Source: Microtetraspora sp. NBRC 16547
GTDB lineage: Bacteria > Actinomycetota > Actinomycetes > Streptosporangiales > Streptosporangiaceae
Direction of reading: 5' to 3'
Length of the DNA: 64,000 nucleotides
NCBI RefSeq assembly: GCF_030268965.1
Contig: NZ_BSSE01000009.1
Location: 124,001 to 188,000 of the forward strand
Part shown: piece after piece, positions 55,795-59,664 of the stretch
Layout: every line of letters begins with the position of its first letter
Numbering within the stretch: position 1 is the stretch's first letter
Notes under the pieces: model-generated
The model's input: the letters and a program-made list of their open reading frames with translations, nothing else
Databases searched by the model: none
What the model was told of the DNA's origin: nothing
Translations under genes and position numbers: made by a program

Positions 55795-55810
55795 ATACCC
55801 CCTCGGGTAT
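55795..55810. promoter_or_regulatory. CstR-type operator 1 (upstream of the repressor gene)
   Basis: ATACCCCCTCGGGTAT, an imperfect member of the four-copy ATACCC...GGGTAT palindrome family in this cluster. It lies nine bases before the ATG of the CstR-like gene, implying autorepression. Confidence 0.75.
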
Positions 55811-55819
55811 GTTGAGGGC

Positions 55820-56089
55820 ATGGAGATGAACGAGATGTTGGTCGGTGACGCGGTGACACGCCTGCGTCGCGCGCATGGTCAGCTCGCCGGGGTGATCGGG
55901 ATGATCGAGGCGGGGGAAGACTGCGCGAAGGTGCTGACCCAGCTCGCCGCCGTCTCCAAGGCGCTCGACCGGGCCGGGTTCAAGATCGTCGCAAGCGGTC
56001 TCCGGTGCTGCCAGGCCGCGCAGGAGCGTGGCGAGGAGCCCCCGATGAGCGTGGCCGAGCTGGAGAAGCTGTTCCTGGCCCTCGCGTAG
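55820..56089 (+). CDS. CstR-like persulfide-sensing repressor (CsoR family)
   Basis: An 89-residue four-helix repressor of the CsoR/RcnR family. Cys35 (in [20 protein letters not shown]) and Cys64 (GLRCC) align with the two Cys of CsoR/CstR. The copper-ligand His of CsoR is replaced by Gly60, so Cu(I) sensing is unlikely and the pair is like CstR, which forms di- to tetrasulfide links with persulfides. The start ATG 55820 is nine bases after operator 1. The downstream rhodanese, TauE/SafE exporter, thioredoxin and persulfide dioxygenase match the known CstR regulon of Staphylococcus. Persulfide sensing is inferred from residues and context. Confidence 0.88.
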
Positions 56090-56129
56090 GCGGCCCTGCC
56101 GCTGTGGGCCGCTTCGGCTTGGCTGGTAC

Positions 56130-56145
56130 ATACCCCCGGGGGTAT
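56130..56145. promoter_or_regulatory. CstR-type operator 2 (upstream of rhodanese-DUF2892)
   Basis: ATACCCCCGGGGGTAT, a perfect 16-base palindrome and the best copy of the set, 27 bases before the rhodanese gene start. Its G/C tract flanked by AT resembles operators of CsoR-family proteins. Confidence 0.82.
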
Positions 56146-56172
56146 ATCACGTTGGTGAAAGGAATAAGACCG

Positions 56173-56766
56173 ATGGCTACCACTCCTCTCTCTTCGGATG
56201 TCGATGTCACGACGGCGCGTGCCATGATCGCGTCGAACCCGGATGTGCTTCTCGTCGATGTGCGTACGCCGGGGGAGTTCGACTCGGCGCACATCGACGG
56301 CGCGATCAACCTGCCCCTCGATCAGATCGGTTCTCGGTTGCGGCGGATCGTCGCGGACGCCGGGGGGACGATGGTGCTGATCTGCCAGTCGGGAAACCGG
56401 GCCGGCCAGGCGCGGGAGAAGCTCTGTGGGGCCGGGCTGGCCGATGCCGTCGTGCTCAACGGCGGGATGAACGCATGGATCGCCGCCGGCGCCCCCGTGG
56501 TGCGCGGCAAGCAGAAGTGGAGCCTGGAGCGCCAGGTCCGGCTGGTCGCGGGCGGCATCGTGCTCACGTCGATCGTGGCCGACCTGTGGCTGCCGGGGGC
56601 GCGGTTCGTGGGGGCCTTCGTGGGTGGGGGTCTGGTGTTCGCGTCACTGACCGACACCTGCGCCATGGGCATGATGCTCGCCCGGCTGCCCTACAACCGG
56701 GGCCGGGATGTGAACGTGGACGAGGCGATGGCGTGCATTCGCCGGCCCGCGCGTTCCAGGGCCTGA
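56173..56766 (+). CDS. Rhodanese fused to DUF2892 membrane domain
   Basis: A 197-residue protein. A rhodanese domain (about residues 10-110, LLVDVRTPGEFDSAHIDGAI) with active-site loop ICQSGNRAGQA carries sulfane sulfur on its Cys. Two C-terminal helices (LVAGGIVLTSIVADLW, FVGAFVGGGLVFASLTDTCA) form the DUF2892 anchor, as in E. coli YgaP, placing the sulfurtransferase at the inner face of the membrane. Start ATG 56173 after AAAGGA. Under CstR-type operator 2. It probably relays persulfide to thioredoxin or sulfite. Confidence 0.92.
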   Translation: MATTPLSSDVDVTTARAMIASNPDVLLVDVRTPGEFDSAHIDGAINLPLDQIGSRLRRIVADAGGTMVLICQSGNRAGQAREKLCGAGLADAVVLNGGMNAWIAAGAPVVRGKQKWSLERQVRLVAGGIVLTSIVADLWLPGARFVGAFVGGGLVFASLTDTCAMGMMLARLPYNRGRDVNVDEAMACIRRPARSRA

Positions 56767-56810
56767 TCGAGGCTTCCCGCTGTCGTAAACGACGGGGACG
56801 TCTGTCTGCC

Positions 56811-56830
56811 ATATACCCCCCCGGGTATAT
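56811..56830. promoter_or_regulatory. CstR-type operator 3 (upstream of TauE/SafE)
   Basis: ATATACCCCCCCGGGTATAT, with perfect 8-base arms ATATACCC and GGGTATAT around CCCC, 14 bases before the exporter start. The centre is two bases longer than in the other copies if arms are aligned at ATACCC. Confidence 0.8.
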
Positions 56831-56844
56831 AGGAAAGGAGTGTC

Positions 56845-57735: not shown

Positions 57736-57769
57736 GACAAACACACCCGGAGACAGAGAGGAATGCGTC

Positions 57770-58135
57770 ATGGTCACAGAACTGACCAAGGGCAACTGGA
57801 ACGCGACGGTCGACTCGGACGGCATCGTGTTCGTGGACTTCTGGGCCGCGTGGTGTGGCCCGTGCCGTCGGTTCGCCCCGATCTTCGAGGCGGTCGCCGC
57901 CCGGAATCCCGACATCGTGTTCGGCAAGGTCGACACGGAGGCGGAGCGGGAGCTGGCGGGCGCGTTCCGTATCACCTCGATCCCGACCCTGGTGGCGATC
58001 CGTGACGGCATCGTGCTCTTCGCCCAGCCGGGAGCCCTGTCCGAAGCGGCGCTCGACGACCTCGTCGCCAAAGTCAGGGCGGCCGACATGGCGGAGATCC
58101 GCCGTCATGTGACCGGACGGCCCGCCGTGCGCTGA
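57770..58135 (+). CDS. trx: Thioredoxin
   Basis: A 121-residue thioredoxin with the canonical WCGPC active site in VFVDFWAAWCGPCRRFAPIF and the cis-Pro in RITSIPTLVAIRDG. Cytoplasmic; start ATG 57770 after AGAGAGGA. In the cluster it is probably the reductant that releases sulfide from protein and low-molecular persulfides or regenerates the rhodanese Cys. It has no own operator and is read from the TauE/SafE promoter. A hairpin terminator follows. Confidence 0.95.
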   Translation: MVTELTKGNWNATVDSDGIVFVDFWAAWCGPCRRFAPIFEAVAARNPDIVFGKVDTEAERELAGAFRITSIPTLVAIRDGIVLFAQPGALSEAALDDLVAKVRAADMAEIRRHVTGRPAVR

Positions 58136-58144
58136 CCGGCCGGA

Positions 58145-58166
58145 GGCCCCGCGATCGGGCGGGGCC
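58145..58166 (+). terminator. Stem-loop terminator after the thioredoxin gene
   Basis: GGCCCCGC and GCGGGGCC, a perfect 8-bp G/C stem with a six-base loop, 9 bases after the thioredoxin stop and before operator 4. Confidence 0.65.
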
Positions 58167-58186
58167 CGAAGTCCTGTCGCCGCAAC

Positions 58187-58202
58187 ATACCCCCAGGGGT
58201 AT
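58187..58202. promoter_or_regulatory. CstR-type operator 4 (upstream of persulfide dioxygenase)
   Basis: ATACCCCCAGGGGTAT, differing from operator 2 at one central base, 35 bases before the persulfide dioxygenase start. It completes the four-copy set spanning 55.8-58.2 kb. Confidence 0.82.
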
Positions 58203-58237
58203 TTTCTGAAATCTCGTTGAACCACAGGAGGATGGAC

Positions 58238-59623
58238 ATGATCTTCACGCAGTACTACCTGGACTGCCTGTCGCAGGCCTCGTACCTGATCGGGGACGAG
58301 ACGAGCGGTCGTGCCGTGATCGTGGACCCCAGGCGTGACGTGTCGGAATACATCGCGGACGCCGAGGCGCGCGGGCTGAAGATCGAGGAGGTGATCAACA
58401 CGCACTTCCACGCCGACTTCATCGCGGGCCACCTCGAGATGGCCGCGCGCACCGGCGCCTGGATCGGTTACGGGCATCGCGCCGAGGCCGAGTACCCGAT
58501 CCGGAAGCTCACCGAGGGCGAGCGGATCGAGCTGGGCGAGGTCGTGCTGGAGATCCTCGAGACGCCCGGCCACACGCCGGAGTCGATCAGCGTCCTGGTG
58601 TACGAGCACGCCTCGGACGCCGTGCCGTACGGCGTGCTGACGGGTGACGCGCTGTTCATCGGCGATGTGGGACGGCCGGACCTGCTCGCCTCGCTCGGCA
58701 TGACGGCCGACCAGCTCGGCCGGATGCTGTACGACAGCGTCCAGCGCAAGCTGATGGCCCTTCCGGACGAGGTCCGGGTGTTCCCCGCGCATGGTGCGGG
58801 CTCGGCCTGCGGCAAGAACCTCTCCACCGAACGGCAGTCGACGATCGGCCACCAGCGGCTGACCAACTACGCGTGCGCGCCCATGAGCGAGGAGGAGTTC
58901 CTGTCCATCGTCACCGAGGGGCAGCCTCCCGCGCCCGGCTATTTCGTGTTCGACGCGGTGCTCAACCGCAAGAACCACGAGTTGTTCGACGTCGACGCGC
59001 ACGCCCGGCCCCTGTCGGCGGAGGAGTTCCTGGCCAGGCGGGCCGCGGGCGCGGTCGTCGTCGACGCCAGGGACGCGCAGGAGTTCGCGCTCGGCCATCT
59101 GCGCGGCTCGCTCAACATCCCCGCGGACGGCCGCTTCGCGGAGTGGGCCGGCACGGTCGTCAAGCCCGGAAGTGAGATCATCGTCATCACCCCGCAGGGT
59201 CGGGAGGACGAGATCGTCACCCGTCTCGCCAGGATCGGCCTCGACACGGTCACCGGATATCTGGTCGAGCCTGAGACCGCCTTCCTCGCCGTTCCCGGTG
59301 AGATCGCCCAGGCGAGTCGCGTCACCGTCGATGAGCTGCGCGAGGCGTTCGAAGGGGCGGAGGCCCCGGCGGTCATTGATGTGCGCAACGCGGGGGAGGT
59401 CGCGAACGGCGCCATCGAGACCGCGGTGAACATCCCGCTCGCCGAGCTCCCCGCACGGCTCTCCGAGATCCCGGCCGACCGTCCTGTCGTGGTCCACTGC
59501 AAGGGCGGCGCGCGCTCGGCCATCGCGGCCAGCCTGCTCAGGCACCAGGGGCGGGACCGGGTGTCCGACCTGCTCGGCGGTTACGATGCCTGGCAGCGCG
59601 CCGTCACGCCCGCCGAGGCATAG
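58238..59623 (+). CDS. Persulfide dioxygenase with two rhodanese domains (CstB-like)
   Basis: A 461-residue three-domain enzyme. Residues 1-240 are an ETHE1-type metallo-beta-lactamase fold: THFHADFIAGH, ETPGHTPESI, TGDALFIGDVGRPD and FPAHGAGSACG hold the iron site. Residues about 265-350 form a rhodanese domain without a catalytic Cys (VITPQGRED at the loop). Residues about 370-455 form an active rhodanese (VVHCKGGARSA). This is the layout of staphylococcal CstB, which oxidises persulfide to sulfite and combines it to thiosulfate. Start ATG 58238 with GGAGG six bases away. Own operator (4). Confidence 0.93.
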   Translation: MIFTQYYLDCLSQASYLIGDETSGRAVIVDPRRDVSEYIADAEARGLKIEEVINTHFHADFIAGHLEMAARTGAWIGYGHRAEAEYPIRKLTEGERIELGEVVLEILETPGHTPESISVLVYEHASDAVPYGVLTGDALFIGDVGRPDLLASLGMTADQLGRMLYDSVQRKLMALPDEVRVFPAHGAGSACGKNLSTERQSTIGHQRLTNYACAPMSEEEFLSIVTEGQPPAPGYFVFDAVLNRKNHELFDVDAHARPLSAEEFLARRAAGAVVVDARDAQEFALGHLRGSLNIPADGRFAEWAGTVVKPGSEIIVITPQGREDEIVTRLARIGLDTVTGYLVEPETAFLAVPGEIAQASRVTVDELREAFEGAEAPAVIDVRNAGEVANGAIETAVNIPLAELPARLSEIPADRPVVVHCKGGARSAIAASLLRHQGRDRVSDLLGGYDAWQRAVTPAEA

Positions 59624-59635
59624 CTCGCAAGACAC

Positions 59636-59664
59636 GGATACCCGCCCGCTCGGGGCGGGTATCC
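59636..59664 (+). terminator. Stem-loop terminator after the sulfur cluster
   Basis: GGATACCCGCCC and GGGCGGGTATCC, a perfect 12-bp stem with a five-base loop, 12 bases after the persulfide dioxygenase stop. Confidence 0.8.

Follow-up and report, generated by a model that had tools for sequence, protein, structure and literature searches.

The window analysed here is a stretch of 64,000 nucleotides of the actinomycete Microtetraspora sp. NBRC 16547 (contig NZ_BSSE01000009.1, positions 124,001 to 188,000), which holds a compact candidate regulon of the CstR type for sulfane sulfur (Table 1). Its five genes all lie on the plus strand and encode a repressor, a rhodanese, a TauE family protein, a thioredoxin and a CstB-like dioxygenase, with four copies of a palindromic operator distributed among them.

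Table 1 Features of the cluster and its 3′ border. Coordinates are those of the window; aa, amino acids.
Feature	Position	Strand	Remarks
Operator 1, ATACCCCCTCGGGTAT	55795-55810		9 bp 5′ of repressor ATG
-10-like hexamer TATGTT	55808-55813	+	overlaps operator 1; TTGCTG 17 nt upstream
CstR-type repressor, CsoR/DUF156 family	55820-56089	+	89 aa; Cys35, Gly60, Cys63, Cys64
Operator 2, ATACCCCCGGGGGTAT	56130-56145		27 bp 5′ of rhodanese ATG
Rhodanese	56173-56766	+	197 aa; active loop CQSGNR; YgaP-like membrane tail
Operator 3, ATACCCCCCCGGGTAT	56813-56828		16 bp 5′ of TauE
TauE/SafE family, putative sulfite exporter	56845-57735	+	296 aa
Thioredoxin	57770-58135	+	121 aa; WCGPC
Operator 4, ATACCCCCAGGGGTAT	58187-58202		35 bp 5′ of dioxygenase ATG (58238)
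CstB-like (type III) persulfide dioxygenase	58238-59623	+	near full-length matches to 3tp9, 3r2u
Hairpin	59636-59664		12-bp stem without U-run, z -4.25; between convergent dioxygenase and multicopper oxidase genes
Multicopper oxidase	59740-61152	-	three Pfam domains above cut-offs; adjoins cluster

All four operators are exact copies of the 16-bp palindrome ATACCC-N4-GGGTAT with a fixed spacing, and 100 shuffles of the window gave no match to it. The initial annotation, which was made from the letters alone, had described the sites as ATACCCC(N)GGGTAT with a spacer of zero to four nucleotides; the palindromes are indeed present, but in the stricter form given here, and while the positions 55795, 56130 and 58187 stand, the third site starts at 56813 and not at 56811. 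That each palindrome lies just 5′ of a transcription unit, as the annotation had stated, agrees with the gaps in Table 1. The whole genome (7,819,122 bp in 151 contigs) was searched for further copies, a check proposed together with the annotation, and just these four exact sites were found. The looser pattern ATACC-N6-GGTAT occurs in six places genome-wide, and the full C/G core is seen only in the four sites of the window. Among the matches listed, one more site has a single mismatch (C11:205923), and as the matches appear to be sorted by mismatches, all sites with none or one would then be visible; sites with up to two mismatches number 52 in the genome vs 36 for a reversed-pattern control, which is not far above the control. 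The site at C11:205923 (L140) falls within a coding frame, presumably that of a ring-hydroxylating dioxygenase judging from its motif, and was rejected as a regulon member, as were the looser matches at C15:109180 and C35:2407, which have no C/G core and are surrounded by frames that, by eye, are not sulfur-linked. The operator search thus found no further regulon members in the genome, and since the four exact sites are joined only by a one-mismatch site in a coding frame, the regulon, as read from the sequence, is confined to the 2.4-kb stretch that carries the operators. The operator is specific enough for the regulon to be predicted from sequence alone.

The repressor belongs to the CsoR/RcnR (DUF156) family, matching PF02583 with 74.2 bits (cut-off 22.8) over residues 10-85. 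Its Cys35 and Cys64 are 29 residues apart, as are Cys31 and Cys60 of the staphylococcal CstR and Cys37 and Cys66 of ScCsoR from Streptomyces coelicolor, and both align with cysteines in the best-matching solved structures, 7mq3 and 7mq1/7mq2, which bear the depositors' label csoR. The Gly60 aligns with Asn in 7mq1/7mq2, with Ala in 7mq3 and with the ligand His in the copper sensor 4adz from Streptomyces lividans; the Cu(I)-sensor ligand set Cys-His-Cys is therefore absent from the repressor, which reads Cys35-Gly60-Cys64, the histidine being replaced as in CstR proteins. A figure legend in a review gives the 7MQ2 entry the name CstR (PMC9774590, cited from a part of the text). The genome's two other CsoR-family proteins, on contigs C7 and C18, both keep the copper-type Cys-His-Cys. 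Conservation was assessed in 80 relatives, the best 80 of at least 474 confirmed repressor matches and thus chosen by similarity; Cys35, Gly60 and Cys64 are conserved in all 81 aligned proteins, the window's included. The alignments accordingly bear out the two family cysteines and the glycine in place of the CsoR histidine that the annotation had named, which had missed a third cysteine, Cys63. This residue is found in three of the 81 proteins, namely those of the window, of Microtetraspora fusca (L010) and of M. malaysiensis (L011), and its position beside Cys64 is a lineage-specific feature of remaining interest.

Two side observations concern these repressors. M. fusca encodes two CstR-type repressors on different contigs, of which L010 is 94% identical to that of the window and has the Cys63, and L027 stands in a cluster that resembles the window's; the other four cluster proteins have no match in the 11.1 kb around the L010 repressor. 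In the genome under study, a palindrome with two mismatches, AACCCCCAGGGGGTAT, is located about 160 bp 5′ of a His-intact CsoR paralogue (L141, G000:C7:34424-34439), and given this palindrome the sites of the copper and sulfur repressors may be similar.

The rhodanese, dioxygenase and TauE genes adjoin that of the repressor, as is typical of the CstR subfamily. Palindromic operators with a G/C tract at the target promoters are a further trait of this subfamily, with which the four sites agree at the level of sequence. The annotation's label of rhodanese-DUF2892, the latter being the older name of YgaP-like_TM (PF11127), holds for the rhodanese domain, but the membrane tail scores 24.8 bits against YgaP-like_TM and narrowly misses the Pfam cut-off of 25.3. 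The dioxygenase has the CstB or type III architecture, consisting of a metallo-beta-lactamase domain, a middle rhodanese-like domain without cysteine and a C-terminal rhodanese domain with the active loop CKGGAR, and the solved metallo-beta-lactamase/rhodanese proteins 3tp9 and 3r2u align over nearly its whole length. The TauE and thioredoxin genes are separated by 34 bp without an operator between them, so the two are probably one unit transcribed from operator 3. Another close thioredoxin of the genome is encoded on contig C22.

A -10-like hexamer starts at the 3′ TAT of each operator (TATGTT, TATATC, TATATA and TATTTT), with four of six matches in each case. Loose ATACC-N6-GGTAT sites no more than 60 bp from a start number 53 in the window and the 80 relatives taken together; the sixth position of the hexamer is a T at 24 of them, compared with 7 that have a T on the mirror side (p 0.0005, a value that ignores relatedness). 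In all 22 of the most similar relatives (L010-L031) the operator of the repressor gene, with no or one mismatch, ends 8-10 bp before the ATG, which suggests that the repressor message is leaderless or nearly so; in the window, transcription of the repressor gene possibly starts at about 55821, with a message that may likewise be leaderless. Steric blocking of RNA polymerase would be the simplest mechanism of repression.

The link between repressor and operator extends well beyond the window. Of the 80 relatives, 42 have an exact operator no more than 3.5 kb from the repressor gene, compared with none of 1600 base-shuffled copies, and 61 have one in the 120 bp 5′ of the repressor gene when a single mismatch is allowed (13 exact, 48 with one mismatch). 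At least one of the four enzymes is encoded within 4 kb downstream in 60 of the 80. The commonest downstream order is repressor, dioxygenase, rhodanese and TauE (27/80), mostly at loci with a more distant dioxygenase that is about 31-35% identical to the window's, and the order of the window (rhodanese, TauE, dioxygenase) occurs in four relatives (L015, L027, L030 and L032). Many Nonomuraea and their relatives (L016, L019, L020 and others) have the same repressor type before such a dioxygenase, which suggests that enzyme types were exchanged under one operator. A second sample, taken evenly from a larger group, comprised 61 family genomes. As summed from the table of counts, their roughly 414 Mb contain 67 exact operators; such sites are absent from 40 of the 61 genomes, and the reversed-pattern control is seen in two of the 61, once in each. 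The G039 genome (L146) repeats the layout of the window, each of its four operators being exact. In G038 (L147) the gene order is also retained, with one mismatch in the operator of the repressor gene and none in the other three. As these genomes bear different genus codes, the layout is shared between genera.

The association of a thioredoxin with the operator also recurs. In the 61 genomes, 62 thioredoxin loci were found at E ≤ 1e-20, distributed over 54 genomes, and eight of them have a perfect operator 19-41 bp 5′ of the gene. Of the others, none has a site with one mismatch, one (L170) has a site with two and 53 have three or more mismatches, although three of the latter (in the window, G038 and G039) sit behind tauE, whose operator is exact. 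L082 and L149 (G016) appear to be one contig of 749,123 bp and were counted once, and L156 (G032), with its operator more than 200 bp from the thioredoxin gene, was not counted. A CstR-like gene is present in the stretch around five of the eight operator-linked thioredoxins (G016, G024, G029, G041 and G055). With 67 sites in about 414 Mb, eight coincidences are far beyond chance, as fewer than 0.01 would be expected by our estimate if the sites were evenly scattered. Among 20,000 random 160-bp stretches, 272 contained a perfect site, 41 a site with one mismatch and 42 with two, but this pool includes operator-bearing loci and is not a clean background. A tree from a short alignment of 65 thioredoxins, the 62 together with L069, L075 and L080, which are operator-linked but were sampled for their proximity to CstR and so stand outside the count of eight, carries 14 operator-linked genes (the eight, these three and the three behind tauE). 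Their distribution requires 4 changes vs 13.0 in shuffles, with none of 500 shuffles as low; they do not form one clade, since well-supported branches force at least three changes, and operator-linked genes are absent from two large clades with 21 and 18 members. On the sequence evidence, a subset of the family's thioredoxins is repeatedly tied to the operator and most are not, so that control by CstR looks like a minority pattern, though a recurrent one. In M. fusca, a thioredoxin remnant matching over about 30 residues lies between the TauE and dioxygenase genes (L027:8965-9111), which indicates that the thioredoxin can be lost from the cluster.

At the 3′ border of the cluster, the hairpin at 59636-59664 is a probable transcript end, which the terminator scan did not call. 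Its arms repeat ATACCCGCCC and GGGCGGGTAT and are operator-like, but with a wider spacing. The convergent multicopper oxidase, which gives CueO- and laccase-type NCBIfam matches below their cut-offs, was rejected as a regulon member as it is without an operator of the cluster type.

Among described systems, the ScCsoR circuit of S. coelicolor (sco0618-sco0621) comes closest; it was published in 2020 (PMC7533328) and is summarized here from passages of that paper. ScCsoR controls its own gene, a rhodanese gene and pdo-tauE through ATACC-N6-GGTAT sites, binds the pdo promoter as well as the region between csoR and the rhodanese gene in gel shifts, and is released from the pdo promoter by polysulfide with Cys37 becoming persulfidated; in the knock-out, pdo mRNA rises 100- to 480-fold, and one of the two sites of the pdo promoter lies at -9 from the mapped start. 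Of 1977 Streptomyces genomes, 1248 have pdo homologues and 773 a csoR-like gene nearby. Shared with the window are the CsoR-like repressor with the two family cysteines, the type III dioxygenase, TauE, the rhodanese and a 16-bp operator at several promoters. In contrast to the window, however, S. coelicolor co-transcribes pdo and tauE, its csoR and rhodanese genes have a single intergenic region in common, two sites belong to pdo, and the circuit as described in those passages is without thioredoxin, whereas the window has four tandem units with one site each, a thioredoxin after tauE and the extra Cys63.

More distant systems show similar parts in other arrangements. The CstR of Staphylococcus aureus has the cysteine pair and no copper-ligand histidine, and is encoded with a CstB-like dioxygenase and TauE, but unlike the cst operon (tauE, cstR, cstA, cstB, sqr) the cluster of the window is without sqr and cstA and has a thioredoxin; moreover, CstR likely controls one operon directly according to the portion of PMC5480029 available, compared with four operators in the window. 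As far as the cited excerpts go, the CstR homologue YrkD of Bacillus licheniformis controls a cluster in which the hypothetical thioredoxin YdfQ occurs together with TauE, dioxygenases and a rhodanese-like protein, yet this cluster comprises eleven genes in another order, with sqr, the NreBC two-component system and few promoters for its many genes (PMC9918477). Likewise, excerpts on TTHA1953 of Thermus thermophilus, a CsoR family protein with cysteine-based control, list a thioredoxin among its targets, although these lie far from the regulator gene and include a Sox system, and report no NaHS-induced loss of binding (PMC10318464).

Taken together, the cluster is very probably an actinomycete CstR-type sulfane-sulfur regulon, and the self-contained persulfide regulon proposed by the initial annotation is supported by the repressor residues, the operator, the gene content and the exclusivity of the sites. 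The sites, gene order, residues, genome-wide exclusivity and conservation in relatives are directly seen. By analogy with characterised homologues, which supply the expected DNA binding, effector, enzyme activities and co-induction, the reduced repressor would bind the four operators, which overlap the -10 regions of their promoters, and would thereby block its own gene, the rhodanese gene, the TauE-thioredoxin unit and the persulfide dioxygenase gene. Modification of Cys35 by persulfide or polysulfide, with Cys64 assisting, would release the repressor; the rhodanese and the CstB-like dioxygenase would then oxidise sulfane sulfur to sulfite or thiosulfate for export by TauE, and the thioredoxin would reduce persulfides to H2S. 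Once the level of sulfane sulfur drops, freshly synthesised repressor in the reduced state would shut the units off.

Several points weigh against such a model. The -35 boxes are weak, with 3-4 of 6 matches, and a standard promoter scan of the region called no promoter. In 20 of the 80 relatives, the 4 kb downstream of the repressor gene encode none of the four enzymes on its strand, and some of these relatives have them upstream. The Cys63 sets the sensing site apart from that of ScCsoR, which has two cysteines only. With respect to the thioredoxin, an exact operator of its own is missing from 54 of the 62 family genes, of which the window's and two others are located behind tauE; there is no CstR-like gene in the stretch around three of the eight operator-linked ones (G040, G047 and G053), and the induction of the thioredoxin and its action on persulfides are an assumed role.

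Two other explanations have to be considered. The repressor shares its Pfam family with copper sensors, its best NCBIfam match is RicR, though far below the cut-off (36 vs 175 bits), and the adjoining multicopper oxidase would suit a copper locus, so it might be a copper-responsive CsoR/RicR repressor that also touches sulfur genes. This appears highly improbable, as Gly60 replaces the histidine ligand that both genomic paralogues retain, which led us to reject the copper reading, and in addition the multicopper oxidase is convergent and without the operator, of which no exact copy occurs elsewhere in the genome.

Alternatively, the main inducer might be another thiol-reactive signal, such as nitroxyl, disulfide or electrophile stress, with the thioredoxin serving general disulfide repair. 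Nitroxyl crosslinks the staphylococcal CstR as well, according to the part of PMC5480029 at hand, the regulon includes a thioredoxin, and Cys63 and Cys64 could form a disulfide. Nevertheless, the dioxygenase, rhodanese and TauE belong to families of sulfane-sulfur enzymes, and the homologous ScCsoR is released by polysulfide in the cited passages (PMC7533328), so a different main inducer seems quite unlikely and control by sulfane sulfur is preferred.

The annotation's observation is right and its functional reading very likely so, while the kind of system is already known. Its suggestion of a little-described actinomycete layout does not hold, since operators at several promoters were published for S. 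coelicolor in 2020 (PMC7533328, in part) and the order and operators recur in relatives, and the thioredoxin is no novelty in a CstR-type cluster either, having precedents in YdfQ (PMC9918477) and the TTHA1953 target (PMC10318464), both known from excerpts. No actinomycete CstR circuit other than ScCsoR was found in searches of the open-licence literature, and no actinomycete thioredoxin under CstR control in the passages of it that were available. What is of remaining interest is the recurrent thioredoxin link together with the lineage-specific Cys63. In this family, a dedicated thioredoxin paralogue may have been put under CstR control, either behind tauE or with its own operator, so that one sensor drives oxidative and reductive routes, and the sensor of the window's lineage may have gained a vicinal Cys63-Cys64 pair that could alter its threshold or signal range; we regard the chances for and against this proposal as evenly balanced.

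The cluster extends the sulfane-sulfur circuit of Streptomyces to another actinomycete family in a clean design of one repressor and four operators. Passages of PMC9952706 attribute the polysulfide response of thioredoxins in S. coelicolor to AdpA, and the prediction for the present family is that the thioredoxin belongs to the CstR response and is not just an AdpA target. If true, a persulfide sensor would drive an oxidative route by rhodanese, dioxygenase and exporter as well as a reductive one by thioredoxin to H2S.

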